A model generated the notes under the pieces. It was given only the letters and a program-made list of their open reading frames with translations. It ran no database searches and had not been told where the DNA came from. Positions 8,394-35,939 of a stretch of DNA of 46,541 bases are shown here, piece by piece. Location of the stretch: IMG/VR virus record IMGVR_UViG_3300042383_000676, positions 1-46,541 of that record; one strand, 5' to 3'. Positions within the stretch are counted from its first letter, which is position 1; each line of letters starts with the position of its first letter. The position numbers were made by a program, and so were the translations under genes. The stretch comes from a virus.

Positions 8394-8422
8394 TTGACAC
8401 GATTTACAACATGCAGTACAAT
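8394..8422 (+). promoter_or_regulatory. Early sigma70-type promoter of the MoxR gene
   Basis: TTGACA (8394-8399), 17-bp spacer, TACAAT (8417-8422), 41 bases before ATG 8464. It lies in the 77-base gap between the previous stop and the ATPase gene. Confidence 0.85.
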
Positions 8423-8463: not shown

Positions 8464-9555
8464 ATGAGTGAAATCAACACCACAAGAACAGTCGGCCCTA
8501 AAGCAGCAAAGAAAGCGTTGGTAAAAGCTTTCAAACATAAAATCCCTGTCTTTATGTGGGGTCCTCCAGGTATTGGTAAATCTGATCTTATCAAACAAAT
8601 TGGTGCAGATACCGATTCTCATGTAATCGATGTTCGTTTGTCACTGTGGGATCCAACTGACATCAAAGGTGTTCCATATTTTGATGATAAAACTTCAACA
8701 ATGAAATGGGCTCCACCTGAAGAATTACCAAGCTTATGGTTTGCTGACCAATTCTCTCGAATCATTTTGTTCTTGGATGAAATGAACTCAGCGGCACCAA
8801 GCGTTCAGGCAGCAGCCTATCAATTGGTATTGAACCGTAGAGTTGGTACTTATACATTACCAGATAACGTTGTGATTGTTGCAGCCGGTAACCGTGAAGG
8901 TGACAAAGGTGTTACCTATAAAATGCCAGCTCCTCTTTCAAACCGTTTTACTCACCTTGAACTAACTCACTCGTTTGATGACTGGTTCGAATGGGCTACT
9001 GAAAACAAAATCAACAAAGACGTTGTTGGTTACTTGAACTGGTCGAAAGGTGATTTATACAACTTTGATCCAAGAACTAGCTCTAGAGCGTTTGCAACTC
9101 CACGTTCATGGTCATTCGTTAGCACTTTGTTATCTGAAAATGATACCGATGATGCAACATTAATGACATTGATGGCAGGTTCTGTTGGTGATGGTACTGC
9201 AACAAAGTTTGCCGGTTATCAAAAATTGGTTGGTAAAATGCCAAACCCATCTGATATCTTGAAAGGTAAAGTTACAAAACTTGACTACAAAGAAATTTCA
9301 GCAATGTACTCGTTAACAGTTGGTATGTGTTACGAGTTGAAAGATGGATGTGACCGCAAAGATCCAGATTGGAACTTGCAAGTCAATAACTTCTTCCAAT
9401 TCATGATGGACAACTTTGAAACTGAGTTGGTTGTAATGGGCGCAAAAATTGCGTTGGCAACTTACAAATTGCCATTGGACATCAATTCAATCAAATGCTT
9501 TATGGAATTCCATAAAAAATACGGCAAATTCATCGCCGCAGCAACCGGCAATTAA
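8464..9555 (+). CDS. MoxR-type AAA+ ATPase
   Basis: A 363-residue AAA+ ATPase of the MoxR/RavA group. Walker A is GPPGIGKS (residues 33-40) and Walker B is IILFLDEMN with Asp105-Glu106. The sensor-1-like AAGNREG follows at about 142-148, and LSNRFTHLEL at about 157-166 is the typical MoxR arginine-finger region. MoxR ATPases act with von Willebrand factor A proteins as chaperones that remodel or load metal into target complexes, and such a partner is encoded next (9624-10835). The start has CTGAGGAAACAG before it and its own promoter. Codon use looks slightly richer in G/C third positions than in neighbours, compatible with strong expression. ATPase identity is secure; the substrate is unknown. 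Confidence 0.92.
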   Translation: MSEINTTRTVGPKAAKKALVKAFKHKIPVFMWGPPGIGKSDLIKQIGADTDSHVIDVRLSLWDPTDIKGVPYFDDKTSTMKWAPPEELPSLWFADQFSRIILFLDEMNSAAPSVQAAAYQLVLNRRVGTYTLPDNVVIVAAGNREGDKGVTYKMPAPLSNRFTHLELTHSFDDWFEWATENKINKDVVGYLNWSKGDLYNFDPRTSSRAFATPRSWSFVSTLLSENDTDDATLMTLMAGSVGDGTATKFAGYQKLVGKMPNPSDILKGKVTKLDYKEISAMYSLTVGMCYELKDGCDRKDPDWNLQVNNFFQFMMDNFETELVVMGAKIALATYKLPLDINSIKCFMEFHKKYGKFIAAATGN

Positions 9556-9560
9556 TAGCC

Positions 9561-9600
9561 AATGGTGGTAGCTCACTGTGAGCTACCACCATTTTGATTT
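9561..9600 (+). terminator. Strong stem-loop between ATPase and VWA genes
   Basis: AATGGTGGTAGCTCA (9561-9575) pairs perfectly with TGAGCTACCACCATT (9579-9593) around a 3-base loop, a 15-bp stem, followed by a modest T-rich tract (TTTTGATTT). It lies 6 bases after the ATPase stop. It may terminate most transcripts or protect the upstream mRNA end, lowering expression of the VWA gene, for which no separate promoter is evident. Confidence 0.7.
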
Positions 9601-9623
9601 AAACATTACAGAGAAAACATATA

Positions 9624-10835
9624 ATGTCAACTCCAACAATAGATGTACAAAAAATAACAGACAATATTATTACTGCCAGGGTTGGGTTACTCTTACAACA
9701 TCCATTTTTTGGTACATTGGCAACTCGTCTAATTATCAAAGAAGGTGGGCCTTGGTGTAAAACTGCATCAACCGAAGGCCGCCATATTTTTTATAACAAG
9801 GAATTCTTTGCACCATTATCAGTTGCACATATCCAGTTTGTCCTAGCACATGAGATTCTACACAATGCATTTGATCATATGGGTAGACGTGAAGGTAGAC
9901 ATCCAAAAATTCACAACTGGGCAGCGGATTATTGCGTAAATGGTCAAATTGTTCGTGATAAAATTGGTGACTGGAAAATTCCAGGGATCAACATCCTGCA
10001 CGATACACAATATTATGGCATGGGTTCAGAAGAAATCTATGATATTCTTAAAGATCAAAACGATGAACAATTGGACAAGCTGGGTGAATTATTAGATCAG
10101 CATATCGATTGGACTGAACCTGATGAAAATGATGATGGGTCTGGCAATGGCCGTCCGGTTTATACCAAAGACGAATTGTCCAGTATCCGTGATGAAATGC
10201 GGGAAGCAATCATGACAGCTGCACAGGCAGCTGGTGCTGGTAATACACCAGGATTGATTCAGCGTATGATCACAGACTTGGTTGAACCGAAAATGAATTG
10301 GCGTGAAATCTTACGTCAACAAATCCAAAGTGTAATAAAAAGTGATTATACTTGGATGAAACCTAGTAGAAAAGGTTGGCATTTGTCAGCAGTTCTCCCA
10401 GGAAGCAATGTTCAAGACACTATTGATATCTGCGTTTGTATTGATATGTCTGGGTCGATTAGTGATGAACAAGCACGTGATTTTTTAAGTGAAATCAAAG
10501 GTATTATGGAAGCGTATCAAGATTTCAAAATTAAATTGTGGTGTTTCGATACCCAAGTTTACAATGAACAAGATTTCGATGGTTATACCATTGATGAATT
10601 TGATTCATATCAACCAATGGGTGGTGGTGGAACAGATTTTGATGTAAACTGGGAATACATGAAAGATCATGATATCCAACCCAAAAAGTTCATCATGTTC
10701 ACCGATGGTTACCCATGCGGTTCATGGGGTGATGAGTTATACTGCGATACTATTTTTATTATCCATGGTAATAATACAATTGTCCCACCATTTGGTGAAT
10801 ATGCGTATTATGAAGAGGTCAAGGCAAACTCATAA
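9624..10835 (+). CDS. Metallopeptidase-like plus VWA-domain protein (MoxR partner)
   Basis: A 403-residue two-domain protein. The N-terminal domain has LAHEILHNAFDH, an HExxH zinc motif (His76, Glu77, His80), and a downstream NWAADYCVN (residues 98-106), as in the DUF2201-type metallopeptidase-like domain. The C-terminal domain is VWA-like with an intact MIDAS site: DMSGS at 274-278, Thr337 in GGGGTDF and Asp361 in FTDG. Between them (about 150-200) is an acidic linker (WTEPDENDDGSGNG). Proteins of this architecture are usually encoded next to MoxR ATPases, as here. It probably binds the ATPase and a target protein; peptidase activity is possible, because His and Glu are present, but unproven. 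The start is ATG 9624 with a weak AGAGAAAA site. It lies after a strong hairpin. Confidence 0.88.
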   Translation: MSTPTIDVQKITDNIITARVGLLLQHPFFGTLATRLIIKEGGPWCKTASTEGRHIFYNKEFFAPLSVAHIQFVLAHEILHNAFDHMGRREGRHPKIHNWAADYCVNGQIVRDKIGDWKIPGINILHDTQYYGMGSEEIYDILKDQNDEQLDKLGELLDQHIDWTEPDENDDGSGNGRPVYTKDELSSIRDEMREAIMTAAQAAGAGNTPGLIQRMITDLVEPKMNWREILRQQIQSVIKSDYTWMKPSRKGWHLSAVLPGSNVQDTIDICVCIDMSGSISDEQARDFLSEIKGIMEAYQDFKIKLWCFDTQVYNEQDFDGYTIDEFDSYQPMGGGGTDFDVNWEYMKDHDIQPKKFIMFTDGYPCGSWGDELYCDTIFIIHGNNTIVPPFGEYAYYEEVKANS

Positions 10836-11119
10836 TGGCAATAAAAAACGGCATTCCAAACCCGTTGAACTATTTTGATTTGCGGAGGGTAGAATATGCT
10901 CCTCCGCATTTCAAATACTTCATTATCAACAAGTACAATCCAACGTTATTCAAAAATCTTAATATATGGATTGAACAAAACCTAAATAGCAGATATTACA
11001 TTGGCCAAGGAATAATGCTTGACAACAATCGTTCAATAGTGTATAATACACGTATTGGATTTGAAGATGAAATGGAAACAACATTCTTCGCACTATCTTG
11101 TCCACATATTCACGGGTAG
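10835..11119 (+). CDS. Hypothetical protein, 94 residues
   Basis: Function unknown. ATG 10835 overlaps the VWA stop by one base (TAATG), so it is probably translationally coupled to it. The protein is aromatic-rich and basic in the first half (NYFDLRRVEYAPPHFKYFII) and probably globular; the C-terminus has PHIHG. The distal third of the gene contains a full sigma70-type promoter (11019-11047) for the following gene. A role with the MoxR/VWA pair is possible from position only. Confidence 0.65.
   Translation: MAIKNGIPNPLNYFDLRRVEYAPPHFKYFIINKYNPTLFKNLNIWIEQNLNSRYYIGQGIMLDNNRSIVYNTRIGFEDEMETTFFALSCPHIHG
11019..11047 (+). promoter_or_regulatory. Early sigma70-type promoter inside the 94-residue gene
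   Basis: TTGACA (11019-11024), 17-bp spacer, TATAAT (11042-11047), both exact consensus, 109 bases before ATG 11157. It is embedded in coding sequence and would drive the genes through thyX. Confidence 0.75.
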
Positions 11120-12052: not shown

Positions 12053-12369
12053 TAGGGAATAATAAAGATCTCCCATGCGAAATTGTTGATATTTGGCCAG
12101 AAATCTTTAATGAGGTAACGATAACAGCGTTACCTCTATTATATGTAGAAAAGGTTAGAATAAATTTTAAAGATGGTAAAACATGGGAACTAGGGATATC
12201 ATCTAAAAATAATAAAAAAGACCTAAAAAAATTTGAAGAAGGTGTTTCAGAAATTTTGAAAACATATGATGAATTTATTGAAGAAGTTGATGTAAAAATT
12301 AACACTGGAAAGGTCAGAAAAGACGTTGAAAAATCTATTAAACGGATGTTAAAGAAGATTAAACTATGA
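12049..12369 (+). CDS. Hypothetical protein, 106 residues
   Basis: Function unknown. It starts in an ATGA overlap with the upstream stop. The N-terminus contains EIVDIWPEIFNEVTITALPL, followed by strand-type sequence (VEKVRINFKDGKTWELGI) and a Lys-rich helical C-terminus ending KRMLKKIKL. I recall similar proteins in marine T4-like phages, always unannotated. A 9-bp stem (12112-12120 with 12128-12136, GAGGTAACG/CGTTACCTC, 7-base loop) lies inside codons 22-30. The stop overlaps the thyX start. Confidence 0.7.
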   Translation: MIGNNKDLPCEIVDIWPEIFNEVTITALPLLYVEKVRINFKDGKTWELGISSKNNKKDLKKFEEGVSEILKTYDEFIEEVDVKINTGKVRKDVEKSIKRMLKKIKL

Positions 12370-13103
12370 AAGTTAAACTAATATCATATTCACAACCAAC
12401 AGAAGAAGTTACTGAATCTGGCATCGAAGATGCACAAGATTTAGTTGCATTCTGTGCAAGAGTATCAAATCCTTCCAATCAGTATAATACCGAAACCAGT
12501 GACAAATTGATTAGGTATCTTATTAAACATGCCCACTGGAGTCCATTAGAGATGATTAGTGCGTGTTTAGAGATTGAGACTACCCGTGACATTGCTAGAC
12601 AAATATTGCGTCATCGTAGCTTCAGTTTTCAAGAATTTAGTCAACGATACGCGGATCCAACAAAAGATATGAATTTTGTAATTCGCGAAGCTAGGTTTCA
12701 AGATTTGAAAAATAGACAAAATTCAATTGTCTTAGATGTTACCAATCCAGAACATCGTGAATTAGCACGTATCTGGGAAGAAAAACAACAAGAAGTAATC
12801 AATACTGCTAAATCAGCGTATACATGGGCAGTTAGTAATGGTATTGCAAAAGAACAAGCTAGATCAGTTCTCCCAGAAGGTAATACCGAAAGTCGCATGT
12901 ATATCAATGGCACATTGCGTTCTTGGATTCATTTTATTCAAGTTAGAACAGATGAATCAACACAAAAAGAACACCGTGAAATTGCACTAGAATGTGCAAA
13001 AGCCATTACCAAAATATTTCCAATGGCTGATGAGTTTGTTTATAAAGAACCAGAACCGATTAAACGATCCTGGTTTTCAAAACTTTTTAAACTATTTAAG
13101 TAA
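12366..13103 (+). CDS. thyX: Flavin-dependent thymidylate synthase ThyX
   Basis: ThyX makes dTMP from dUMP using FAD, NADPH and methylenetetrahydrofolate. The 245-residue length is normal for the family, and the ThyX signature RHRxxSxxxxSxR is intact at residues 82-94 (RHRSFSFQEFSQR), followed by the usual Tyr95. Further conserved-type segments are HAHWSPLEM (55-63) and ARSVLPEGNTESRMYINGTL at about residue 163. A basic tail (about 230-245) is added at the C-terminus. The start overlaps the upstream stop by ATGA; the gene ends just before the bidirectional terminator. It supplies thymidylate for phage replication, as in many cyanophages. Confidence 0.95.
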   Translation: MKVKLISYSQPTEEVTESGIEDAQDLVAFCARVSNPSNQYNTETSDKLIRYLIKHAHWSPLEMISACLEIETTRDIARQILRHRSFSFQEFSQRYADPTKDMNFVIREARFQDLKNRQNSIVLDVTNPEHRELARIWEEKQQEVINTAKSAYTWAVSNGIAKEQARSVLPEGNTESRMYINGTLRSWIHFIQVRTDESTQKEHREIALECAKAITKIFPMADEFVYKEPEPIKRSWFSKLFKLFK

Positions 13104-20042: not shown

Positions 20043-21722
20043 CTAATTTAATCCATATCTTAGTTTTTTTGGTCTAGGGTAAACTACACCTGTAGATGGT
20101 CTAAATTTATAATTTGTTTTTGGAAATATAATATTAATGGTGTATCTCTCCAAATTGTGATATAAATATTTATTTGGGCCATTTTGTAAATCATATAAAT
20201 CAGAAGTACCCCCAGAGGTAGACGTTAGTTGTCCAGTTTTAGCATAAGATGTAATATAATTCTTTGCAGCAGCTTGCGCCATATTTGGATATATTTCTAG
20301 TGCACATGCTAATACGCCACACACTTGTGGTGATGCCATTGATGTCCCAGATATTTTTCCTTTATAATATGATGAATTTCTAGGATCAGTGGATGCCGCA
20401 TATGTCCCATTATCATTAAAAGAACTCATTATATATTTACCTGGAGCATACAGGGATATTGCAGGACCTGTATTACTAAATGATGCTTTTCGTTCAGTAT
20501 AAATTGTATCTATTGCACCAACTCCAATTACTCCAGGAACAGACCCTGGTGTTGAACCACGATGTGTGTACCACAAATATGATGTACCACCATATGTTGC
20601 GTTAAAAGTATTATCATAATCTGGTCCAGAGGATACATCTATTAAAAATGAATCATTACCAGCCGCTGCAACTATTATAATACCATCGTTAATTGCCTGT
20701 TGTATGTCAGATGCCATTGAAGTACTATAATATGGCACTGCCGCAATTGCTGATGTATTATATATACCAGCATTTGTTAACTCAGTTACAGTTAATGCAG
20801 TTGAATAATCACCAACACTAATTCCACGCTTTATTGCATGTGTAATAGAACCCGTACCAAGTGATGACGATGGAAATGTTACAGTAGTTCCATAACTACA
20901 ATTACAAATTGTTGGATTTTTCACCCCAGTTAACGGATTTATTGCCTTATTTCTATGAAACGCCCTAATGTAATCCCATAATATTAATGCATCCATTGTG
21001 TTTGAATTTGGAGACACTCCGAATGGACTAATATTATATATATTAGCATCTCTAGCCCATCCATTTGTATTACCGGCAACCGTTCCTGCAACATGACACC
21101 CATGATTGTTTTCTGGACCGGTATATGGGGTGTATACATATTGCCCAGATAACGCTGTAGTAGCATCATTATCTATTGATGATGCTATCGAATTTAATGA
21201 ATGCCAATCAAATTGATTAACTCTACTCCCACCAGTACCATCTGAATTAACACTAAATTCTGGGTGTTCAGGATTGATATGACCATCAATTATAATAACA
21301 TCAACATGTCTCCCACTTGTTGTTGTTGAAATAGTTTCCGTTAGTGTTGAAGTGCCATTACTTCCCCAATTCGCAGTTTGGTCACCTTTTACACATCTAG
21401 ATAGCCCCCAATTATAATAAGAACTACTATTAGATGATGACTTGTCAAATGCTTCAACTGGTGTGGTCCAGTTTGGTGTAATCGTAGATAATACCAAACT
21501 CGCTAATTCAATATTGGTTATTCTAGGATCTAATAACAACTTTTGTACTTCGTCATAAGTTAATAAATAATGTGTATTTTTACTTAATGGTCTTCTTTTA
21601 TATACTGAAACTTCCCTATCCGGGACATTCTCAGTCCCACCAATGGTCTCCATATCTATATAAAATTGGTCCAACTCTGACTCATCATTTAGTGTAATAA
21701 TATATTCAGAATAATCACTCAT
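20043..21722 (-). CDS. Subtilisin-family (S8) serine protease, 559 residues
   Basis: A protease of the subtilisin clan encoded inside the fibre gene cluster. All catalytic elements are visible. Asp146 lies in DVIIIDGHI, His207 in NNHGCHVAGTVAGN, the oxyanion Asn356 in VAAAGNDS and the nucleophile Ser461 in SGTSMASPQVCG. An N-terminal part of about 100 residues precedes the catalytic domain and includes TYDEVQKLLLDPRITNIELA, which resembles an inhibitory pro-domain; there is no evident signal peptide. The C-terminus (about 500-559) is an extra, basic-aromatic segment. Cys is found next to His207 (HGCH rather than HGTH). It starts just after the 283-residue fibre gene, with GGAG upstream. Plausible roles are cleaving a virion precursor or degrading host surface protein, both inferred. 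Confidence 0.92.
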   Translation of the reverse strand: MSDYSEYIITLNDESELDQFYIDMETIGGTENVPDREVSVYKRRPLSKNTHYLLTYDEVQKLLLDPRITNIELASLVLSTITPNWTTPVEAFDKSSSNSSSYYNWGLSRCVKGDQTANWGSNGTSTLTETISTTTSGRHVDVIIIDGHINPEHPEFSVNSDGTGGSRVNQFDWHSLNSIASSIDNDATTALSGQYVYTPYTGPENNHGCHVAGTVAGNTNGWARDANIYNISPFGVSPNSNTMDALILWDYIRAFHRNKAINPLTGVKNPTICNCSYGTTVTFPSSSLGTGSITHAIKRGISVGDYSTALTVTELTNAGIYNTSAIAAVPYYSTSMASDIQQAINDGIIIVAAAGNDSFLIDVSSGPDYDNTFNATYGGTSYLWYTHRGSTPGSVPGVIGVGAIDTIYTERKASFSNTGPAISLYAPGKYIMSSFNDNGTYAASTDPRNSSYYKGKISGTSMASPQVCGVLACALEIYPNMAQAAAKNYITSYAKTGQLTSTSGGTSDLYDLQNGPNKYLYHNLERYTINIIFPKTNYKFRPSTGVVYPRPKKLRYGLN

Positions 21723-22589: not shown

Positions 22590-25500
22590 TTATAAAGTCC
22601 ATTGTAACCCAGTTTTCTTGACTATAGTAATCTTCGTACCAGCTGGTACAGGTCTTGTTAATCGTATTTTTTTCGAAGTTCCATCAACTGAAAAATCAGC
22701 ATCAAACTGTACATCACCAGCTGGACTATATGGCGAAATATTCAAATTAAATACTATATACGGATGTTTTTTTAATCTTATATGTGCTGAAAAAAACTCC
22801 CAGTTATTATAATCAGTTAAGAAATCTTCACTAGTATGAGAAGAGATACATCTATATGTATATATTCCATAACTTATTATATCACCGATATTATAGGTTG
22901 TTGTTATTGACCAGCTTGTAACTTCATAATGCACAAATACATCAATTTCATCACATTGACCATAATTATTCGGTATCACACTTGTAAATTCTTCAGGTAA
23001 ATCCCACTCAGTAACTGCTTTTGATGGGATAAATGTCACATCAACCATATTAGAAAATGAGCTCATGGTAACATGTTCAGTAACATTATTATCACGATAT
23101 GAAATAATAGTACTTGGTCCAATATTTTGAACTTCTGTCCCAGATTCATATAGGTTTACTGCACCAGTTCCCATTGTTCCACGTCTTATTTGACTCAACG
23201 TGTTGTCATGAATTTTAAAGTACTCAATTCGTTCACCATTAATATCAATCACACCTGGTTTATTTTTCTTTATGTCAGGTATATCAAAATTATCTGTGTT
23301 CTTTAAATATATCACATCATCAGTTATGTAAAAATCCTGAGTCAATTCAGTTCGTTGATCATAATTCAAATTTTTATATTGGAATCTGTTCAACATATCT
23401 TTAAACTGCATATATGAAACCCGTGTAGTTTTATTACTATTATAGGTAATAATATCAAATACATCTTCTGTCGTAGGTTCAAATAATAATGTTAAACTAA
23501 TTTTATCAGGGTTTATTATAAAATCAACACCTGGTGTTAATAATTTTCCAGTTTTTACAACCCATATATAATCCTCATTTATAATTTCATTTGGAAGCTG
23601 GATAATACCACCCAACACTTCTAAATTATAATAATATTGTGAAGAATCTTGTACAGGTATAATATCTGGTGTAGCATCAATCTCTATCCTTGATACACCC
23701 AAAATTGTATTATTATAAGAACTAAATATAACCACAATATTGTTAGGTCCAATTACAGTATCAAATATGATCCCAGCGGGTGATCCACCAAATGCTGGAA
23801 TATAAGTGTATTCAGAACTCAATAATATGCGTTGATCTATTCTAACAATCATATTGATTTCATTCGGTGATGCATCACCAACGATACTAGTTAATATATA
23901 TGCTTGTGTTTTAGGTCTATTATCACCAACAACTTTCTGTGATGTTGTTATAGTAAATGTTCTTTCAGCATTACTAGCAAGAATATAATGAACAATCGCA
24001 TTAGGTGGTATAGGATTAGAAAATATAAACTTCAAAACACCATCAACATTTTCAATATGATTTGATAAGAATTCACCATGAAAATATGCATATGCAGTTA
24101 CACTAATAGAAGAATTCCACATTGTTTTGGTTGCAAATATTGTTTGACCACCATTCCCAACAAAAAATCCAGTATCTAATATATCAGATCCATTTACACC
24201 AATACTGAAAATAGTTACAATGAAGCCTTCATCAGGTGCCGTTGTAAATGTAATAGTATTGTCATCATAGTTAACAATATAATCAACACCAATTTCTTGG
24301 TAAACAATCTCTGAAAGTAATTCATCATCTTCATTTCTAAAAAATGATTCAACCGTAACGATTAATGATTGGTTACTATTCATTCGTTGGCCAATATCAA
24401 ATATAGTATCTTCACCATTTGCAACATGCTTTTCAACTTTAATATTGCCTGAAACAACTGATTGACTATCATATACCTTAATAGAGACTGCATCTACCAA
24501 TTGACCAGGAACTATTTCCTCTGGAGCATAACTAGTATTTTCTGTTACAAGCCCATCCCCATCAACATTGACATCACTTGGTGAAATTCCTGTTGCTGAG
24601 GTATATGCCAAATTCCCACCATCATAAGAGGTGTCATAATCTTCCTCATATGGTTTAATTGAGCCATCACTTGTAATTTTTCTTAAAATGATTACATCGC
24701 CTTCATTAATACTAACATTTATAGGTATATTAATACTAACATACCCATTAATACCAACTGTGACCTCATCGTTAGATTCCGATTCAACCAACGCTGTTTT
24801 CATTACGGCATTAATATTTGTTTGAAAATGTTCTGGTCCAGTAGCGCCAGGCATAATTCCATAGTATTGATCATCAATTCTAGTACCATTTAAATATACA
24901 GTAATTAACGTACCAATTTCTGGGACATATGGCAAATCTATTGAATGTTCATTAGCACCAACATTTACTGCATGATCATCATAAGTTGTATCATAATTAT
25001 CCCATCTATCAGATGCATATGGTGTGCTATCCCATCCTTTATTGTATTCAAAATTCATACCATCAACGATTACACCACCATAGTCAACACCAGTCATTAA
25101 TTGTGATAAATCTTTACCCAAATCGGTAGAAGATGGATTATAAAAATGTTGAATTCTGTCAGCCGCATTTAATGTTGAAACATCTTTACTATATGTAATT
25201 TCTATAATAGACCCAATTACAGGTATTGTATCAAATGTTATTGAGCCAGTTACTTTACTGAAGTAAATATTATATTCAGGATTTATTGGTTCATGTACTA
25301 TAGCTAATGTGTATACACCTCTAGAAATTTCAACACCGTTTATAGTTACTAATGCTTTTCCAATCTTAATATCTGGTGCCCATGATAATCCATAAGTACT
25401 GTTTACACCATCCGCTTCAAAACTTTCAGTTTCTTCTAATTTATTAATACTATAATCATTAGTAATTCTATCGAATTTTAAACCAATTGTATTAGTTCTG

Positions 25501-28500
25501 ATATTACTGTCACCTATGATTGCTACAGCTCGTGCAGCATCACCATTACTGGCATTACTAATTCTCACCACAGGTGCAGCTAAATAACCAGACCCACTAG
25601 TAACAAGAACTATACTATCTACTTTTCCATTATTAATAGTGGTGTATGCAGTAGCACCAGATCCAGAATCACTTATAATTTCAACCGTTGGCGCAGTTAA
25701 ATACCCGTATCCAGAATATGTCAACGTTAATTTGGTAACTTTAAATCCAACATGATCCAACCAGCTTTTCCATGGATATTCATTAATCGCAGTATCATAT
25801 GCAACAATTTCACCATTTTCAACAGTTGCATCAATCACTGTAGTTCCGCCATAATTATATAATGATGGTAAATCAAAATCCGTAGTTCCAAATTTACCGA
25901 TATCATTATTATTGTAAGAACTTACATATTCTCTAATTTTCGTTCTATATGGTTTCACTTCAGCAACATATGATTCAAAATCTGCTAAATTATCATTTTT
26001 ATATGTAATAGGTTGATCCAACATACCAACATTATGAGTTGCTTTTACAAAACTTGTTTTAAAAATCCAATCTATATATGTTTGTTCACTAAATGCATAT
26101 CTTATACTATTGAAAAATAAATTTAGATATTCAACTTTTAAATCATTGATGAATATTGATTCCTTAATGGCTGTCAATATGTTACGCAATTCAGTTGTTA
26201 CATTTATATCATAACCAGTGGTATCATATAAGGCACCATCATACGCAGTTTGATTATATAATGATGTTTTTAATTGAATAGTACCGTTTTCAATGCCAAT
26301 TATTGTATATTCCTGTGTCCAATCAATAGTACCAACAGTTGAATTACGTTTTAATAATACCCATTCACCAACATTATTATACTTAACTTTAACAATATCA
26401 TTTACTTTTGGTGAAATCGATGTTAAATCTGAAAAATTTAGAACTTCGTATTCAATTGCAGTAAATTCATTATAGCCTGGCTCATACCAATTAACTTTAT
26501 CCCAATAATTAGGAGTATTATAAGATTGTGTTAATGATCTAACCCACCCAGGTACGGATGCATATGATCTAATCGTAGTCATTGTAACTGTTTGTACATT
26601 ATTCACAGTCCAAGTCGTACCATTTCCACTCACTATAAATGTACCTGGAATTACACCTGTTCCATATAAATATTGTCCGGTTTCTATGATACCAGTAATC
26701 GATCCGTCAATAGTATCAATAGTCAACGTAGTCCCATTAATATTAGCAATGCTTGCAACAAATGAATTTCTTTTTGGTTGATATGAATATATCGCCCATG
26801 TATCATTTGATTGGGTATCACTATTAATCAATATAGCAAAATCTCTAACACGTATAACAGTATCATCTGAATAACCTTCACCACTATTAATAATTGAACA
26901 ACTTATAATTTGTCCTTTTGAATTAATAATTGGAACTATATTTGCATTAATACCGCTGCCTAATACAGTAATAACAGGGGCTGTAATATACCCTAACCCA
27001 GAATTTATTATTTTAACATCAGTAATTTTACCATCATTTATTATAGGTAATAAGACAGGCTGTTTAACAGAACTAACGTTAATAAATTGTAATTCAGAAT
27101 CTGTGTCAATTGCTTTATCGTATAATCTTGATGACTCCAATGGTGCCGAATCATATTTCTCCAATAATGATAAATCACGAGTTGATGAAGATATTTGATT
27201 TTTTATTAGAACTAAATTTGCTTGTTCAATATATTGTTTTAATGCTTCAAATCTATTTACAAACATAGATTGACGTGGGCGATTCTCGATACCATATCGT
27301 AATTTCGGTGATACAGTATTATCAGGCACCAGGCGGCCAGCCGTGTCACTTCCACATAAGCTATCAAACCATTTCTGTTCAACATTGTAAGGTATTGTTG
27401 TTAATGGATCATTACTGATAAGTTTCCATTCAGAATGTATTTTTTGATCAATATCGCCAATTGTCCAATATTGTAATGATAAAACAACATCTTTATTTTG
27501 TAATAAATATTTACAATTAGCTACATTAAATGAATTCATACCAGTTAACGATACAAATTTATATCCTTCACTTACTGGATTTGCAATCATGTTTGCAACA
27601 CTTGCACTAGAAATATATCTTCCAGATACTGATGGAACTGTTACTTTATTTTTAACCCAATAGTAATATGTATATTTTAAACTTTTACTGATATTATCAA
27701 AATAAGTTTTAACACTATATACACTATCAGAGTATAATGATTTCCCACTAATACCCATTGATAACCCACTATCAGTGTCTGATTGTGCATCCCACGCAGA
27801 TGGTTTTAATGATGTTTCAACCCATTCATAAATATCAACAGATGCCAATGGTGCAAGTTTATACCAATTAGTTGATCTGTATACATCATCAACATCATTA
27901 CATTCAATAAATTTAGAAGTACTTAAATCCCACCATATTTTACCAACTTGTTTTGTCGTCCATGCAGCAGTAGTATCTACATTAACAGAAGATGTCCCAA
28001 CAGAATAAATTGCTGGATCATAAAATGTCTTGTAACTAATCTCTTCGTCAGCTGGCCCTGCAATTTTACCTTGTAATGGATCTAATACATCCAAACTAGC
28101 TAAAAGCATATTGGTTTTTTTATTATATACAAATGCTTTTTTTATTTTACTAATATTTGGGACAGTAACCTCGGTATTCAACTTGGACCAGCTGTACGCA
28201 TTAGCTTGTTTATTGTATTCAACAACCAATCCAATATTTTGCAATTGATTATCATATGAAGGCGTTCCAATTAACACAGTTCCATCACCAACTGAAAACC
28301 CAACATTTGCAGTATTTTCAATATTAGTAATTAATGATATGGTTTCACTAAAAATCCATTTAGTCGCATATCTATCATAGATATCAATTCTACCAGAAGG
28401 TGAATTTGAATATTTGCTATGTACAACTATTGTATTATCACCCATGAACGATATGTTTGTACCAAATTTTTCGTTAGATTCTGGGACAGTATTTAATATT

Positions 28501-31500
28501 TGTTGGTATTCTGAATACATTGTACCAAATTTATAAACAGTAACAGTCCCCTCATTTGGATATTGCACTGTTTCCAGTGGATCAGATATTGCAATATATG
28601 TTCCGGTATCATTAACTGAAATACCAGTACCAAACGCCGATGTACTACCAGTCAATGTTTGTAAAAATTCAAAATCTTTATAAATATGCACTTTGCCAAC
28701 TGCAGAAATCAATAGTGTAGAGTTATCTGTACTGACATTTACATTTGTTCCATATAAATCACCGGAAACCTGGCCATTATAATTAGTTGTTAAATCATAC
28801 TGCCAGTAATTTACAACAAAATTAATTGTACCAGATGGTTGAACATCGGGTGCAGCACTTAGTGTTACAGTTTTTGTTACAGTATTAACACTTATTACTT
28901 GTTGATTACTATAGAATCCGGTCCCAACCACATACATACCAAACCCGATTTTAGCAACCGAAGATAATTTTATAATATTACCATAGCTACCAGCAGGATT
29001 ATATTCAGCACTTGTAACTATACTTTGATTGTATGAAACTTTATAAACTTTCCCAGTATCATTATCTGAACCTGGTGCCCCAATATATAATGCATAAGAG
29101 CTCGCATCATTGTCAAATGATAAACTATATCCAAATTTTTCATTTGATGCAGGGAATGGGCTAACAAATGTAGATACTTCAAAGTAATTGTCTGTATCAT
29201 CCTTTTCATAAATCGTAACAACACCTTGGTTTGTATAAATTGAATCAAGCCCTTTAATTGTAGTATGATTTAAATCATAGATTTCTCGTGTTATTGCATT
29301 GTTTAATCCAGTAGTATTATCAAATGAAACAGCAGCCGAATCAAATGTATTAACACTATTATCAAATCGCATATCTGTATAGTAAATTACAGATGCATTA
29401 CTTGCATTTGGGGAACCAACCGCAAGCCATTTCCCATCACCTGACATTGCAATAACTTCACCAAATATATTATTTGGATTGATTCCATTATTAGAAATAT
29501 ATGGGGTTGTTAATACTTGCTTTTGTCTTCTAATAGAAGAATCGTTAGAGCTGTATGTATATATTTCTCCAAGTGCAGTTGATATGGCTACTAATTTTCC
29601 AGAATCCCAAGACGCAATAGATCTACCATAATTCATTTCAGATGTAATATATGGTTGGACTATCATTCTCCCAGTATACACTGGATTATATCGCCATACT
29701 GCCCAGTTACCGGTTCCATCATTGTCTGTCCATAGTTTTTCACCAGATAAAATGTTATTTTGCAAAATAGTATTTGCATTATCAATATTAGTAATACGTT
29801 GATTAGTAAATTTAAAAATTTCAATAGATGATTGATGGGTAAACGGATTTTCAATTGTTAACCCTGTTTTTATAATTACTATAGTATGTGTTGTTGTTGA
29901 ATTTATTTTATAAAAACCATTAAATCCAATAACACCAGTAATACCAATATAATCACCTGTACCTAATGTGACTATGGAAGATGTTGTAATTGTTAAAACA
30001 CCATCATTAGCTGTATATGTAACATTAGTTATAACTAAATTTGATGGGGTATATCTATACACATTCCAAGAGCGTTGTTCAAATGTACACCACACATAAC
30101 TACCTTCAGAAAAGTTAGATATGTCTTGATCGATAATCTGATCTATAGATTTCAAAGTAACTAATACATCAGACTCTCTAACATATCCAGCCGATCTTAA
30201 AAATGGTTTTTTAGAAGTAACAACCGGAAATGGGTTTGAATTATATCCAATTGGTTTTAAATACAAATCCGTTGGAAGTTGTTGTATAATATAGTCTGAT
30301 AACGATAAATCAATATTTGGTACTAATTTATATCCTTGAGGATTATTAACGTGGGTTTGTTCATCTAATAAGATTTCCACCTCATCAAATGCACTACTAG
30401 CACCATATTGACCTACACGCAATGCCCATTCTTCGTAAAATGTCAGACTTTCTGCATTTTCTGTATTAAATACACCAAATAAATGGTCAAATACATTTTG
30501 AGTACCTTTATCACGAATCATGCCTTGATAGAACTTAAATTCACTAACATTATCTTGAATAATATTGTCTAAATATTGACGTTTCTGATACCCAATCAAA
30601 TGTTGTGCCATTGTTTGCTGTGAATTATCAAAACTATCAACTTCTAATGTATAAAATTCATTAAATTGTGTAGCGATTGTTGTCAAGTTTGGTAAAATTT
30701 GCTGAACTGGTTTCTTTGATAATTTAACCCAGTTGCTTGGCATAAAATTTTCGGATCCAGCCATGCATATATCTGCACTATAATAATACGATTGATACCT
30801 TACCACATCCCCAATAACATAATCTTTCCATGGTGTCCAATTTGATACACTAGCATCATCAAATATAAAGCCAGGAATATCAAATCCACCATACCAGTCA
30901 CTACTCACATATGCAGATACTTTAATTCTATCTTGTTTATATCCACTAGTTGGATCATAAATTAAATCATTAAACATTGTTGTATTGTTGATAATAACAA
31001 CATGTTCTTTTTGTATCAAGTAAAAGCTAGCATTGTAAATACCATCATCATTGGTTGGTGCATAACTAACAAAATTTTCATCTCTGTTTGATTTTAAATA
31101 TAATGGTGATATTGGTTGCCCGTCTACTCTAAACATTTCATAATCATTGTATGGATTAGATATATCGTCAATAATATTGATAGTTGTAGAAAATGTTATT
31201 TTATTCGCAGATGGACTTAAGGATATAACTGAACTCCCAACCGTACTTAATCCATCCATTTTTAAATAATATTCGGTTTGAAATGTAGAATTAGCTGGAA
31301 TATTTCTAAGAGCCTTATAGTAATCACCAAAATATCTAACAATAGTACCATATTGAACAGCGGTGTTAGGTACCCATTCTGACCATTTATCCTGTCCGGT
31401 TGACCAATTTTGTGTTGTCCAAAATAAAAATTCCTTAGCACTGGTTTCCCAATTACATACTTGTGCTAAATTAGAATTAAAATCATCAAATATGAAACCT

Positions 31501-34500
31501 TGATCTTTTAAGTACTCACCATAGCCAAGTAAAAAGTCAACTACTTCTTGAATAGTACTAAACACTGAATTGTATGGCAATGTGATTGGTGTTTGTCTAT
31601 TCCAGGCTTTTCTAAAATATACAGTTCTTCCACCAACAATTGGTAATGATGCTAATTGTTGATATTTTGAATTATCGAATACAGAATCACGGTTAATAAA
31701 CACAGTGGCTCTATAAAACACGTTACCTAATTTAACTATTTGCCCGTGTGGGTATGATTCACCACTTTTCCATGAAACATATGATTCTGAAATTCCACCA
31801 ATTGTTATAATTGACCCTTTTTGTGACCAATTATAATAGTTGAAATATGGCTGTGTTTTACTGTATCCGTTTACAGAATATCCATTCGCGAGTTTTGATA
31901 CAATAACTCCACTATATGTTATTTTACTCGTAGGAGTAGACGTATTTAATATAATTTTATAATCATCTGACGGTACAAATACCCCACCAGCAGTTAATGG
32001 TGATTTTGAATCTAATATTAATTTAAATTGTTGTTTGCTTGTGAATGCACCAACTCTATAACATAAATTATAATTCAAATTAAAAATATCATATAGATAC
32101 TGATTATATTTTGTTAAATCTTCACTTACTAAATAATTAATAATATAGTTTATTATCCCAGATGTCTGGACACGTGAATTACTAGAATAGATACTTGGTA
32201 ATTTTAAATCAGATGCTGTTATATGCACCCCAGATTCTGTGTAAATTAGCTGCCCATTGAGATTTCTTTTTATTCTTGATCTATCAAATAATACACCAAT
32301 AACACTTGATGGTTTCATTAATATAGTTGTTAAAAGTAAACTAAATGGGAAGTGTGAACTACGTCTCCATGCATTTTCTACCGGTGCAATATCACCAAAA
32401 ACAAAATCACCTTGTATATTTTGTGATAAAAATCCTGAAACAATTCCAGAATCAAATGGACTTACTAAATTTCCACCATCATCTACAGGAATATGTGATA
32501 ATAAAAATGGTTTTAAGTAATCTACCAATACAATTGGATCTTTACCAGGTTCTTTTAATAGGCCATTACTGATATCTTCCCACATTATGTGATTATCACT
32601 GGTATATGGAGCAGGTCCATACACAGTATCCCACCACGATGGCTTATCAGTAATTCCCATGATTTCCCATGGACATATATTTGGTCTATCAGTATCCAAA
32701 ATCCATTTGTATACTCCTCTCCAATATCCAGGTGCAGTTGACCCGTTTGGTGATGATAACCCACTATAATTAAATGTGAATGGATTATTTTGATCAAATG
32801 TAACTGCTGAAAAATTAACATCAATTAATGACAACCATTTATAAAAACTTGATGATAATATTTTGTTAAACTCAGTCATACTATAATCATTTTTAACATT
32901 ATACCTAGATATAATGTCATTAATATTGAAAATATTAGGATCGTATGATATTTTAGTATTATTGTATATTCTTTTTTCTAACTCTATTAGTAAATCATCA
33001 CGATAATCACCATATGCAAGTGTTAAACTACCATCGTGTCCCTGTATCATTGATACTGGTGTTATTAAAGTTGTATCAACATATATATTAGGATCATATA
33101 ATGGAAAAATCCCTAATTTAGAAGGGGTTTCTGGTACAAAACATCCATCAGTATTCTCATATTCATAAATTGTTATTTCATCACCAGGTGCAATAGTCGC
33201 AGAAATATCAACGAACCCTTGATCATCAAACATATAATCATGGCCATACAATAGTTGAACACCATTTAAATATATTCCAACTGCTCTGTTAGATAATGCA
33301 TCTAAAGTAAATGGTACATTCAATGGATATTGTGTTTGAATATAATCTAAAACTATATAAGTTGTTTTAACACTAGCACCAAATGGGATCATATCACTAA
33401 AATAATACGGAGACGTTTTAGGAACATTTCTAGTTAACTCTTGCATGATCAAATCTACATGATTTTTTACGTCAGTATCAATACCAAGAGTTTCTGCTAC
33501 TTTAATAAAATTTCGTTTAAACTTATTATAGTCTTCACGAGCTTGTTCAATTGCTCTAACAATATTAACCTGATCATTTGTAATATGATACAATGATAGA
33601 CAAGATGGTCCGCTATGACGGACAAACTTTGTTCCATATTGTGATATATTACCCAAATCTCTTAAATTACTAGATCCAGGAAAAATTCCATTGAATCCTG
33701 GTAAATTGTCAACCATTGATGTTACATGGTCTAGTACTTCACCAAGTGAAAAATTAGAAATAGTTTCATTTAATGGATTATTTTGCAAATTATTTGGTAT
33801 TTCATAATATCCATTTGAATTTATTGGTTGTGAAGCAAATGTTCTTATTGTCAATACGTCAGTTAATGATATTGGGGTTGTCAATACTATTCGTTTATAT
33901 TTTGGAGAATTTTCAACCACCCATTGTGTGACTAAGCCAATATCTTTTTGTAATCTAATACCATTAATGTAAATCTTTACTTCTAAATCATCTAATAAAG
34001 ATATATCATCAAAAATATCAATATCAAAATTATTTACTTTACCAGAGTTTTTATATATTCTAATACCAGCTTGGGTAATTAGCGATGTATTTGTGACCCA
34101 CCCATTGGAATAGACAGGAGAACCAACATAATCAGATGTAATTAAGTACCCAGTTCCTACATTTTTATCAACAAATGACAAAGTTGAACTATCTCTATAA
34201 CTAAACATATCAGAAATAAAGTTAAAGTTGAATACAATATCACCAATATTGTTTATACTTTTATAAGTTATTGGGAAATTTAAAATAGGGTCATCAATTC
34301 CAGTTGTATTGACTTTATACGTAAATACCTGTGATCCTTTAAAATTAGAACCACTATACACAGAAGTGTCACTGAAACTAATACCATTTTCGTCAACTAC
34401 ATCAAACACCGGCTGTTGATTCTGCTTTATTTTTTGCTGCCCAAGGACCCAATTAGATCCATTAAACCAAAATTGCTTATTAATCATAGACCCATTTGTA

Positions 34501-35939
34501 ACACGAACTACGTCATTGATCGATGGTACTCGTATTTTATGCAAATGTATTAAGGAATCGATTATTTCAACTTTATAAATTGCATTGGCAACACTTGAAT
34601 CCAAATCTGCTGTGAAAATGATATATTGACCATCAGATACTGCTATTTTATCTACAGTATACCCGGTTGATCCTTCAATATCAGAAAAAACATCATTTGT
34701 AAAATCATCAACTAAATCAACATCTATTATGCCGGTAGTTCCAAAATTAAAAAGTTTTAAATTAGCAGAAAACTCAATAATTGGTCTATTAGCACGAGCA
34801 CTTTGATTTAATGTGACTACTATTTTATTTAATTTTGCACTTGTAATTAATACATCTTTATGAACCCATCTATTTGATCTACTCCACGCATTTTTATCAG
34901 TACTATCACGATTTATTGTAATATAATCAGGAGTTGGCGCTATAACATCCAATAAAGAGCTGTCTACTAGTTTAATTGCATTACCAACACCCTCAACATA
35001 AAATGTACCAGAAGCATATTGGGTTGGTACCACTTTACCACTAAATGAAACCAACATTCCATTGCTTAATGGTGTACCATTTGTTAATGTATATGTCTTT
35101 TTGCCTAAAATATCTGATTCAATATCAATTTCAGTGTTATCATCGATTGAAGATATAATAAAAATACCACCGGTATCTAAAGAGGTTTCACTTTGATAAA
35201 ATAATTGATTAGGTGCATTAAGTGGAACAGTAAATGTAATGGTCCCGTTTTCAACTGCATGTCCAGTAACTCCTTCTGTATATCGATACTGACCACCAAC
35301 TGATCTTTCAGTAACAATACTGAATGGATTCCCAACTGAATTTATTTCAAATACATAGGTTTGGCCTCTATATAAGCGAAGTTGTGGATTAGTAGTAACA
35401 CCATTTGGCGTGAATACATATTCAGTTGTATTACCATAAGTTGTTGTTTTTACAGAAAACGTACTTATAGAGTTACTTTGTTGTCCATGAATATTAATTA
35501 CAGATGGAATTTCCCAATAATAGTTTTGATAATTTACTAACTTGTCCCAATCAATATTAGGATTCCAGCTATACATTTCTTCTTTATTCAATCTGGCATG
35601 ATTTGATACATCACCACCAAAAACCTTAATTTTATTGATATAATCTTGATAATCTTTAAAATAAATGTTATTACCTTCTTCATCATTTATTGTGATAGAA
35701 GGTTCTAATTGATAATTCTGTCTATTACTATCCGGTGCTTGAATAAAAACATCTGCACCGGTTGTAGCTTTTGCATTTTGACGGCCAATATATCCATTCA
35801 ATTTTGAAACAGTACCACGTTGAGTCAATTGCTCAACAGTTGCTTGCAAAAATTTTGAATTTGCATCTGTTCTAAAATATCTTGGTAAAAAAGTTGCAGA
35901 TATATTAGTAGATGCGTTTGGATTAACTCTATCGGTCAT
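22590..35939 (-). CDS. Giant virion structural protein, 4449 residues (gp7-position)
   Basis: One uninterrupted frame of 13.35 kb, starting one base within the gp6 stop (TAATG) with GGGAG upstream. It stands where T4 gp7 (about 1030 residues) follows gp6, so it may be an enlarged wedge protein or carry baseplate and fibre functions together; homology to gp7 is not shown. Visible parts: a conserved-looking N-terminus (SKFLQATVEQLTQRGTVSKL) and four carbohydrate-binding-like modules (near residues 1387-1430, 1515-1560, 1696-1740, 4335-4380; W-Y-G-Y-Y spacing as in CBM5/12). A beta-propeller/FG-GAP-like region lies at about 2110-2570 (KFGYSLSFD, KWLAVGSP, KFGTNISF, GTVLIGTP). Two pairs of GYxxAPxV repeats sit near 2980-3020 and 3410-3450. 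There are no membrane segments and few cysteines. It is probably a long baseplate or fibre component acting at the cell surface. Confidence 0.85.
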   Translation of the reverse strand: MTDRVNPNASTNISATFLPRYFRTDANSKFLQATVEQLTQRGTVSKLNGYIGRQNAKATTGADVFIQAPDSNRQNYQLEPSITINDEEGNNIYFKDYQDYINKIKVFGGDVSNHARLNKEEMYSWNPNIDWDKLVNYQNYYWEIPSVINIHGQQSNSISTFSVKTTTYGNTTEYVFTPNGVTTNPQLRLYRGQTYVFEINSVGNPFSIVTERSVGGQYRYTEGVTGHAVENGTITFTVPLNAPNQLFYQSETSLDTGGIFIISSIDDNTEIDIESDILGKKTYTLTNGTPLSNGMLVSFSGKVVPTQYASGTFYVEGVGNAIKLVDSSLLDVIAPTPDYITINRDSTDKNAWSRSNRWVHKDVLITSAKLNKIVVTLNQSARANRPIIEFSANLKLFNFGTTGIIDVDLVDDFTNDVFSDIEGSTGYTVDKIAVSDGQYIIFTADLDSSVANAIYKVEIIDSLIHLHKIRVPSINDVVRVTNGSMINKQFWFNGSNWVLGQQKIKQNQQPVFDVVDENGISFSDTSVYSGSNFKGSQVFTYKVNTTGIDDPILNFPITYKSINNIGDIVFNFNFISDMFSYRDSSTLSFVDKNVGTGYLITSDYVGSPVYSNGWVTNTSLITQAGIRIYKNSGKVNNFDIDIFDDISLLDDLEVKIYINGIRLQKDIGLVTQWVVENSPKYKRIVLTTPISLTDVLTIRTFASQPINSNGYYEIPNNLQNNPLNETISNFSLGEVLDHVTSMVDNLPGFNGIFPGSSNLRDLGNISQYGTKFVRHSGPSCLSLYHITNDQVNIVRAIEQAREDYNKFKRNFIKVAETLGIDTDVKNHVDLIMQELTRNVPKTSPYYFSDMIPFGASVKTTYIVLDYIQTQYPLNVPFTLDALSNRAVGIYLNGVQLLYGHDYMFDDQGFVDISATIAPGDEITIYEYENTDGCFVPETPSKLGIFPLYDPNIYVDTTLITPVSMIQGHDGSLTLAYGDYRDDLLIELEKRIYNNTKISYDPNIFNINDIISRYNVKNDYSMTEFNKILSSSFYKWLSLIDVNFSAVTFDQNNPFTFNYSGLSSPNGSTAPGYWRGVYKWILDTDRPNICPWEIMGITDKPSWWDTVYGPAPYTSDNHIMWEDISNGLLKEPGKDPIVLVDYLKPFLLSHIPVDDGGNLVSPFDSGIVSGFLSQNIQGDFVFGDIAPVENAWRRSSHFPFSLLLTTILMKPSSVIGVLFDRSRIKRNLNGQLIYTESGVHITASDLKLPSIYSSNSRVQTSGIINYIINYLVSEDLTKYNQYLYDIFNLNYNLCYRVGAFTSKQQFKLILDSKSPLTAGGVFVPSDDYKIILNTSTPTSKITYSGVIVSKLANGYSVNGYSKTQPYFNYYNWSQKGSIITIGGISESYVSWKSGESYPHGQIVKLGNVFYRATVFINRDSVFDNSKYQQLASLPIVGGRTVYFRKAWNRQTPITLPYNSVFSTIQEVVDFLLGYGEYLKDQGFIFDDFNSNLAQVCNWETSAKEFLFWTTQNWSTGQDKWSEWVPNTAVQYGTIVRYFGDYYKALRNIPANSTFQTEYYLKMDGLSTVGSSVISLSPSANKITFSTTINIIDDISNPYNDYEMFRVDGQPISPLYLKSNRDENFVSYAPTNDDGIYNASFYLIQKEHVVIINNTTMFNDLIYDPTSGYKQDRIKVSAYVSSDWYGGFDIPGFIFDDASVSNWTPWKDYVIGDVVRYQSYYYSADICMAGSENFMPSNWVKLSKKPVQQILPNLTTIATQFNEFYTLEVDSFDNSQQTMAQHLIGYQKRQYLDNIIQDNVSEFKFYQGMIRDKGTQNVFDHLFGVFNTENAESLTFYEEWALRVGQYGASSAFDEVEILLDEQTHVNNPQGYKLVPNIDLSLSDYIIQQLPTDLYLKPIGYNSNPFPVVTSKKPFLRSAGYVRESDVLVTLKSIDQIIDQDISNFSEGSYVWCTFEQRSWNVYRYTPSNLVITNVTYTANDGVLTITTSSIVTLGTGDYIGITGVIGFNGFYKINSTTTHTIVIIKTGLTIENPFTHQSSIEIFKFTNQRITNIDNANTILQNNILSGEKLWTDNDGTGNWAVWRYNPVYTGRMIVQPYITSEMNYGRSIASWDSGKLVAISTALGEIYTYSSNDSSIRRQKQVLTTPYISNNGINPNNIFGEVIAMSGDGKWLAVGSPNASNASVIYYTDMRFDNSVNTFDSAAVSFDNTTGLNNAITREIYDLNHTTIKGLDSIYTNQGVVTIYEKDDTDNYFEVSTFVSPFPASNEKFGYSLSFDNDASSYALYIGAPGSDNDTGKVYKVSYNQSIVTSAEYNPAGSYGNIIKLSSVAKIGFGMYVVGTGFYSNQQVISVNTVTKTVTLSAAPDVQPSGTINFVVNYWQYDLTTNYNGQVSGDLYGTNVNVSTDNSTLLISAVGKVHIYKDFEFLQTLTGSTSAFGTGISVNDTGTYIAISDPLETVQYPNEGTVTVYKFGTMYSEYQQILNTVPESNEKFGTNISFMGDNTIVVHSKYSNSPSGRIDIYDRYATKWIFSETISLITNIENTANVGFSVGDGTVLIGTPSYDNQLQNIGLVVEYNKQANAYSWSKLNTEVTVPNISKIKKAFVYNKKTNMLLASLDVLDPLQGKIAGPADEEISYKTFYDPAIYSVGTSSVNVDTTAAWTTKQVGKIWWDLSTSKFIECNDVDDVYRSTNWYKLAPLASVDIYEWVETSLKPSAWDAQSDTDSGLSMGISGKSLYSDSVYSVKTYFDNISKSLKYTYYYWVKNKVTVPSVSGRYISSASVANMIANPVSEGYKFVSLTGMNSFNVANCKYLLQNKDVVLSLQYWTIGDIDQKIHSEWKLISNDPLTTIPYNVEQKWFDSLCGSDTAGRLVPDNTVSPKLRYGIENRPRQSMFVNRFEALKQYIEQANLVLIKNQISSSTRDLSLLEKYDSAPLESSRLYDKAIDTDSELQFINVSSVKQPVLLPIINDGKITDVKIINSGLGYITAPVITVLGSGINANIVPIINSKGQIISCSIINSGEGYSDDTVIRVRDFAILINSDTQSNDTWAIYSYQPKRNSFVASIANINGTTLTIDTIDGSITGIIETGQYLYGTGVIPGTFIVSGNGTTWTVNNVQTVTMTTIRSYASVPGWVRSLTQSYNTPNYWDKVNWYEPGYNEFTAIEYEVLNFSDLTSISPKVNDIVKVKYNNVGEWVLLKRNSTVGTIDWTQEYTIIGIENGTIQLKTSLYNQTAYDGALYDTTGYDINVTTELRNILTAIKESIFINDLKVEYLNLFFNSIRYAFSEQTYIDWIFKTSFVKATHNVGMLDQPITYKNDNLADFESYVAEVKPYRTKIREYVSSYNNNDIGKFGTTDFDLPSLYNYGGTTVIDATVENGEIVAYDTAINEYPWKSWLDHVGFKVTKLTLTYSGYGYLTAPTVEIISDSGSGATAYTTINNGKVDSIVLVTSGSGYLAAPVVRISNASNGDAARAVAIIGDSNIRTNTIGLKFDRITNDYSINKLEETESFEADGVNSTYGLSWAPDIKIGKALVTINGVEISRGVYTLAIVHEPINPEYNIYFSKVTGSITFDTIPVIGSIIEITYSKDVSTLNAADRIQHFYNPSSTDLGKDLSQLMTGVDYGGVIVDGMNFEYNKGWDSTPYASDRWDNYDTTYDDHAVNVGANEHSIDLPYVPEIGTLITVYLNGTRIDDQYYGIMPGATGPEHFQTNINAVMKTALVESESNDEVTVGINGYVSINIPINVSINEGDVIILRKITSDGSIKPYEEDYDTSYDGGNLAYTSATGISPSDVNVDGDGLVTENTSYAPEEIVPGQLVDAVSIKVYDSQSVVSGNIKVEKHVANGEDTIFDIGQRMNSNQSLIVTVESFFRNEDDELLSEIVYQEIGVDYIVNYDDNTITFTTAPDEGFIVTIFSIGVNGSDILDTGFFVGNGGQTIFATKTMWNSSISVTAYAYFHGEFLSNHIENVDGVLKFIFSNPIPPNAIVHYILASNAERTFTITTSQKVVGDNRPKTQAYILTSIVGDASPNEINMIVRIDQRILLSSEYTYIPAFGGSPAGIIFDTVIGPNNIVVIFSSYNNTILGVSRIEIDATPDIIPVQDSSQYYYNLEVLGGIIQLPNEIINEDYIWVVKTGKLLTPGVDFIINPDKISLTLLFEPTTEDVFDIITYNSNKTTRVSYMQFKDMLNRFQYKNLNYDQRTELTQDFYITDDVIYLKNTDNFDIPDIKKNKPGVIDINGERIEYFKIHDNTLSQIRRGTMGTGAVNLYESGTEVQNIGPSTIISYRDNNVTEHVTMSSFSNMVDVTFIPSKAVTEWDLPEEFTSVIPNNYGQCDEIDVFVHYEVTSWSITTTYNIGDIISYGIYTYRCISSHTSEDFLTDYNNWEFFSAHIRLKKHPYIVFNLNISPYSPAGDVQFDADFSVDGTSKKIRLTRPVPAGTKITIVKKTGLQWTL

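Follow-up and report, generated by a model that had tools for sequence, protein, structure and literature searches.

What could a large phage do with a MoxR-type AAA+ ATPase encoded beside a protein that joins a putative metallopeptidase to a VWA domain, and on what would such a machine act? The question is raised by two genes at positions 8464-10835 of the IMG/VR record IMGVR_UViG_3300042383_000676, positions 1 to 46,541 of which (46.5 kb) form the stretch of DNA analysed here, hereafter the window. A first-pass annotation of the sequence had described them as a MoxR ATPase and a metallopeptidase/VWA partner, and as the window's best candidate for an undescribed functional system. Both ORFs are found there, with Pfam and PHROG matches to these families (Table 1).

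The record is probably a genome fragment of a large uncultured bacterial virus. With a family-B DNA polymerase, a 5'-3' exonuclease and ThyX, baseplate and tail genes of the T4 type, a late sigma factor, a subtilase and a 4449-aa virion protein, its gene content assigns the lineage to the T4-superfamily jumbo myoviruses. Protein identities of 37-53% make PA5oct-like Pseudomonas phages, Sinorhizobium phage Phosso and Agrobacterium phage Atu_ph07 its closest isolates, and no near-identical phage DNA is present in the phage collection. The subtilase gene lies within the tail/fibre module, and the giant virion protein matches phrog_10938 and carries a CBM_5_12 carbohydrate-binding module at its C-terminus. 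A giant virion protein is also found in phAPEC6 (382 kDa), and that of N4 is its vRNAP.

Table 1. Features of the window at and around the ATPase and zincin-VWA genes
Feature	Position	Strand	Observation
Sigma70-type promoter TTGACA-17-TACAAT	8394..8422	+	11/12; upstream of ATPase gene
MoxR/NorQ/CbbQ-type AAA+ ATPase, 363 aa, N4 gp24 orthologue	8464..9555	+	ORF, family matches, alignment, AlphaFold, PDB folds
Walker A GPPGIGKS, residues 33-40	8560..8583	+	K39 in 147/147 covering homologues; S40 in all but one
Walker B D105-E106 (LDE)	8776..8781	+	Invariant, 150/150 homologues
15-bp hairpin, terminator-like or attenuator-like	9561..9593	+	Intergenic; RNA fold -24.8 kcal/mol, z -5.25
DUF2201_N zincin + VWA-like protein, 403 aa, N4 gp25 orthologue	9624..10835	+	ORF, family matches, alignment
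Zincin motif H76-E77-x-x-H80-x4-H85 (HExxHxxxxH)	9849..9878	+	Three histidines 166/166; E77 165/166
MIDAS motif 1 DxSGS (D274-x-S276-G-S278), residues 274-278	10443..10457	+	Metal ligands invariant, 166/166
Remaining MIDAS residues T337 and D361	10632-10634; 10704-10706	+	Site complete
94-aa gene, clade-specific companion	10835..11119	+	Overlaps VWA stop codon
Consensus sigma70 promoter TTGACA-17-TATAAT	11019..11047	+	12/12; inside 94-aa gene, before 86-aa gene at 11157
ThyX gene	12366-13103		1.5 kb downstream of the pair
Subtilase (Peptidase_S8) gene	20043-21722	-	Within tail/fibre module
4449-aa virion protein	22590-35939	-	phrog_10938; C-terminal CBM_5_12

Two proteins with complete active sites

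The ATPase matches phrog_1297 over residues 5-357 of 363 (E 2.9e-97) and, over the cut-off, Pfam AAA_3/AAA. Its AAA+ core is complete, with Walker A and B, sensor 1 and arginine finger; the sensor-1 residue N143 and arginines R161 and R214 are invariant wherever they are covered in the alignment of 150 ATPases. For its AlphaFold model (pLDDT 88.2) the best PDB folds are NorQ (E 1.8e-9) and CbbQ2 (E 2.5e-8), 2r44 and cso-CbbQ also being listed, and several of the NorQ matches are structures in complex with the VWA domain of NorD. Family matches and predicted fold together place the protein in the NorQ/CbbQ branch of the MoxR family, and they support the general MoxR/VWA remodelling mechanism that had been put forward. 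The NorQ/NorD and CbbQ/CbbO systems have the ATPase fold and a VWA partner in common with the window's pair, but NorQ and CbbQ share only ~15% sequence identity with the ATPase and serve respiratory or Rubisco enzymes, and NorD and CbbO, unlike the partner described here, are not known to have a zincin domain.

This partner matches PF13203 (DUF2201_N, 'putative metallopeptidase', E 5.3e-38), PF09967 (DUF2201, VWA-like, E 5.2e-15) and, over residues 9-398 of 403, phrog_1314. The latter is named 'HNH endonuclease', as are many RefSeq phage homologues; no Pfam HNH family is matched at E 0.1, and the label looks like a propagated misannotation. A PDB search by sequence gave no significant match, leaving the zincin part without a sequence relative there, and a bacterial DUF2201 member matches the M48 and SprT-like peptidase families weakly; a zinc peptidase is predicted from the motif. 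In the AlphaFold model (pLDDT 81, linker regions being weaker) the VWA part matches solved integrin I-domains and other VWA domains, the MIDAS domain of midasin also being listed. Against the known defence-system proteins of PADLOC, the pair gave weak matches only.

Relatives were gathered at 143 viral and 18 genome-contig loci, and 166 zincin-VWA proteins (149 from phages, 17 from genome contigs) and 150 ATPases were aligned, including those of N4, S-TIM5 and Bacillus phage G. Residues H76, H80, H85, D102, N106, D274, S276, S278, T337 and D361 never vary among the 166 proteins, H85 and D102 being the candidates for the third zinc ligand, G277 of the MIDAS motif is replaced by A in three genome-contig proteins, and the sole variation of E77 is a Q in Agrobacterium phage Atu_ph07 (HQILH). 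The invariance of catalytic and MIDAS residues across homologues puts conservation of the motifs far beyond chance; the Walker A/B, MIDAS and HExxH motifs, reported as intact at first, are all present and, this E77Q apart, conserved. The Atu_ph07 protein (gp263, L004:11208-12497) retains all histidines and MIDAS residues and is probably a natural catalytic-dead zincin variant; as this phage does without the catalytic glutamate, proteolysis may not be essential.

A pair shared by hundreds of phages

Wherever both genes are present (156 of 156 loci) they lie on the same strand, the ATPase gene first, with a gap usually below 120 nt, and the exceptions to this short gap are inserts. In the PA5oct-like phage MIJ3 (L002:13099-15859), an annotated HNH homing endonuclease and three small genes stand between the two; inserts also separate them at L088, L089, L090 and L006.

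By tblastn, the two proteins match 812 and 770 of the 50,697 records of the phage collection, in phages that include N4-like, rV5-like and jumbo members. These ~800 records, together with the literature, rule out an undescribed system: the pair is that of N4 gp24/gp25, both being full-length phrog_1297/phrog_1314 matches, and it has been described in jumbo phages (PMC7824862). It is real and highly conserved, and its sequence makes it a new member of a phage family already known. The first-pass annotation had itself named, as evidence against its view, a pair present in many phages with a function already assigned; the many phages were found, while the function has been proposed (virion assembly) rather than assigned.

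Family, gene order and strand are the same in N4 (Schitoviridae), where gp24 is an AAA+ ATPase and gp25 a vWFA protein that keeps HExxHxxxxH and the MIDAS residues, and the RaK2 annotation calls its own pair gp24-like and gp25-like. Many N4-like members are nevertheless only ~25% identical to the window's pair, and the N4 pair has no 94-aa companion. Middle transcription in N4 is carried out by a phage RNAP. It is to this class that N4 gp24/gp25 belong (PMC4193335), whereas the window has host-sigma70-type promoters. The N4-like phages share gp24 and gp25 as core genes to which no function is assigned (PMC4193335, PMC7650795), and the main text of the CRISPRi-ART paper gives no fitness values for them.

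Iyer et al. (2021) described, for the jumbo phages of group 2.2, a MoxR and metallopeptidase-vWA chaperone-cochaperone pair, and proposed for it, by analogy with the archaeal virus ATV, a role in virion assembly (PMC7824862). The domain architecture is identical to that found here, and the window lineage is related to this group (T4-superfamily jumbo, with Phosso, PA5oct-like phages and Atu_ph07 as best isolates). Two example accessions of the published pair were absent from SCTP-2, the one record checked; the description matches. In ATV, p892 stimulates the ATPase activity of p618 (PMC4124505); these also form a viral MoxR and VWA pair, and it is by this pairing that they are likened here, although the virus is archaeal and spindle-shaped and its pair has no peptidase domain (PMC7824862).

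Whether the small 94-aa gene always follows had been raised as a question. It lies 3' of the pair in 132 of the 133 viral relatives with room for it, directly so in 101, in copies 30-81% identical to that of the window; its product has no Pfam match, no significant PHROG match and no match in the 50,697 phage records. These searches make the gene a companion of the window's clade, not of the pair generally. Further downstream, a ThyX relative is found in 86 of the 98 loci with room, and thymidylate synthase is close to the pair in RaK2, PBECO4 and S-TIM5.

Promoters and a hairpin at the locus

The claim that the pair has its own strong promoter is borne out: a promoter of at least 11/12 stands at a similar distance before the ATPase gene in 104/119 relatives, against 0/119 shuffles. 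The consensus promoter inside the 94-aa gene is poorly conserved, with at least 11/12 in 9 of 132 relatives. The promoters being strong and of the host-sigma70 type, the proteins should be made early, and it is from this promoter type that we infer early expression of the pair.

At the junction between the two genes, the window has the hairpin alone, with no promoter, and all 93 relatives with a gap of 40-120 nt fold there at -10 kcal/mol or lower. In 124/143 relatives a second sigma70 promoter occupies the junction, and the 17 nt of its spacer form a perfect inverted repeat around a 4-nt loop, often TTCG (124 observed vs 1 in spacer shuffles); the stems covary, their bases differing between phages while pairing is kept. 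Examples among loci L007-L149 are TTGACAGGACCTTCGGGTCCTGTTATAAT (L092:5930-5958) and TTGACACCTCCTTCGGGAGGTGTTATACT (L040:5933-5961). In relatives further removed, a terminator-like hairpin comes first and a separate promoter after it. The 183-nt gap of L078 includes a promoter, a terminator-like hairpin and a sequence resembling a tRNA. The new finding is the conservation of strong sigma70 promoters at two places, ahead of the ATPase gene and again between the two genes. On the simplest reading, the ATPase transcript would end or be attenuated at the junction and the partner would be started anew, so that the two proteins could be made in differing amounts.

Pattern scans of IMG/VR yielded at least 227 newly fetched sites of the palindromic promoter, at least 204 at the ATPase-VWA junction and at least 23 beside other genes; about 10% of the matches listed from the collection lie at other genes. 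A cassette dispersed genome-wide was also considered and rejected: ten records of 82-223 kb, with 1-23 consensus promoters, hold at most one copy each (one in nine of them, none in G001). Comeau et al. (2014) reportedly described promoter-terminator cassettes, PeSLs, in T4-like phages. These reportedly resemble the junction of the window's relatives in associating an early sigma70 promoter with a stem-loop, but their copies would be dispersed, whereas in the relatives the stem lies exactly within the 17-nt spacer, about once per contig and at one gene junction. A composite of the PeSL type, sigma70 promoter with overlapping stem-loop, is present at the junction in these 124 relatives and absent from it in the window.

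Possible targets of the machine

The explanation that we judge, by a little, to be probable is that of a phage AAA+ chaperone-protease module of the MoxR/NorQ kind, with a phage protein complex as its most likely target. Observed directly are the domain identity, the invariance of the active sites, the gene linkage, and the promoters and hairpin as sequence features. From these, the ATPase would form a hexameric ring, on which the VWA domain of the partner would dock via its MIDAS metal site, bringing the target protein; ATP hydrolysis would remodel this target, and the zincin domain would cut it. Strong host-sigma70-type promoters would drive the two genes early in this phage group, each as a unit under its own control, a hairpin or terminator separating the two. 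What the machine acts on would most likely be a phage protein complex needing assembly or maturation, a host complex being the main alternative. Confidence is high for the predicted composition (ring, VWA adaptor and zincin) and moderate for a phage-protein target.

The virion proteome of phAPEC6 includes gp265c, an "ATPase" of 49.52 kDa, with 6 unique peptides and 19% coverage (PMC7247149). In the near-identical relative PBECO4, the masses are 49.50 kDa for the ATPase, 25.03 for gp007, 35.48 for thymidylate synthase and 35.96 for gp013, and gene order and masses identify gp265c as the MoxR ATPase orthologue, which supports both a phage target and the published assembly proposal. The same virion list also holds SSB, a RecA-like protein, topoisomerase and thymidylate synthase, so the ATPase may have been co-purified or be a contaminant, and the 54.1-kDa zincin-VWA partner is missing from this proteome (PMC7247149). 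A phage target is also supported by the position of the pair next to structural genes, which directly precede it in RaK2 and PBECO4, and in RPP1, where it adjoins a second structural module (PMC4193335). The presence of the pair in the core of N4-like phages of very different hosts argues in the same direction. The location 'away from structural genes' noted at first is true of the window, where the neighbours are DNA-metabolism genes and count against a phage-target module, but not of the family in general.

A specific form of this explanation, which we hold only tentatively, is the virion- or tail-assembly chaperone with proteolytic processing that Iyer et al. (2021) proposed from the parallel with ATV p618/p892. 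The published proposal, the phAPEC6 mass spectrometry and the structural neighbours in RaK2, PBECO4 and S-TIM5 agree with it. The conserved promoters of the window's clade give a timing clue at odds with it, as they are of early and not late type, argue for early action and therefore fit virion assembly more poorly; no T4-type late promoter motif (TATAAATA) was found near the pair, though the scan gave nothing usable for any gene, structural genes included. Since both short-tailed (N4-like) and contractile-tailed phages carry the pair, a tail-specific role is unlikely.

The main rival, which appears to us doubtful, is a host-directed machine, in which the pair, made early, would dismantle or modify a host complex, for example an enzyme of respiration or of cofactors, or a complex that serves transcription or defence. 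The strong sigma70 promoters at the locus in relatives would suit such a role, as would the status of N4 gp24/gp25 as middle rather than late genes (PMC4193335), and bacteria own MoxR-DUF2201 pairs, some in retron-like operons, which puts the pair on both sides of the conflict. The ATPase orthologue in purified phAPEC6 virions stands against it, and the pair is retained in phages whose hosts are many and unrelated, which does not speak for a single host-specific target.

Bacterial pairs were found in 83 of 399 sampled genomes, all of one order (Burkholderiales-type), and an adjacent MoxR gene is clear in 19 of the 20 bacterial DUF2201 loci read; most of the homologues sampled there keep the two genes linked on the same strand. 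A minority of them stand at the end of an operon that starts with a reverse transcriptase of 910-1080 aa bearing NAxxH, YADD and VTG, the hallmarks of retron RTs, followed often by a DNA methylase, by an unknown protein of 300-350 aa, then by MoxR and the DUF2201 zincin-VWA protein. Such operons, whose RT has a long N-terminal part, are seen at L158:141-7203, L164:468-7212, L153, L154, L155, L159-L163, L165 and L166. With PADLOC the best RT match is RT_XIII and the 300-350-aa protein gives nothing; by its genes the operon resembles a defence operon and is a candidate for one. That bacterial DUF2201 proteins are generally partnered by the retron-like RT was rejected, since in the sampled order only a minority have it. 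It seems unlikely that the pair is an exchangeable conflict module, with the phage copy neutralising or taking over a host or defence complex opposite the bacterial pairs or the retron-like operon; if true, large virulent phages would express their copy very early, from some of the best sigma70 promoters that their genomes contain, and it would act by ATP-driven proteolysis.

Least probable of all is a chaperone inserting metal or cofactor into a phage metabolic enzyme, for instance one of the nucleotide-metabolism enzymes encoded nearby: the NorQ/CbbQ-like fold of the ATPase and the nearby ThyX and thymidylate synthase genes are in keeping with it, but the 98 loci scored for ThyX are close relatives with shared synteny, large phages commonly carry nucleotide-metabolism genes, so that the linkage may be incidental, and a metal cluster is not known to be required by either ThyX or ThyA.

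Implications

The interest of the locus lies in the function of the pair and in its regulatory element rather than in a new kind of system. Few phage proteins without an assigned function are conserved as widely as those of the N4 gp24/gp25 type, and that catalytic and MIDAS residues stay invariant in phages so divergent suggests that the machine works and matters. The hairpin-in-promoter element lends itself well to a transcription test, and N4, an E. coli phage that is easily worked with, could show what a family present in hundreds of sequenced phages does.
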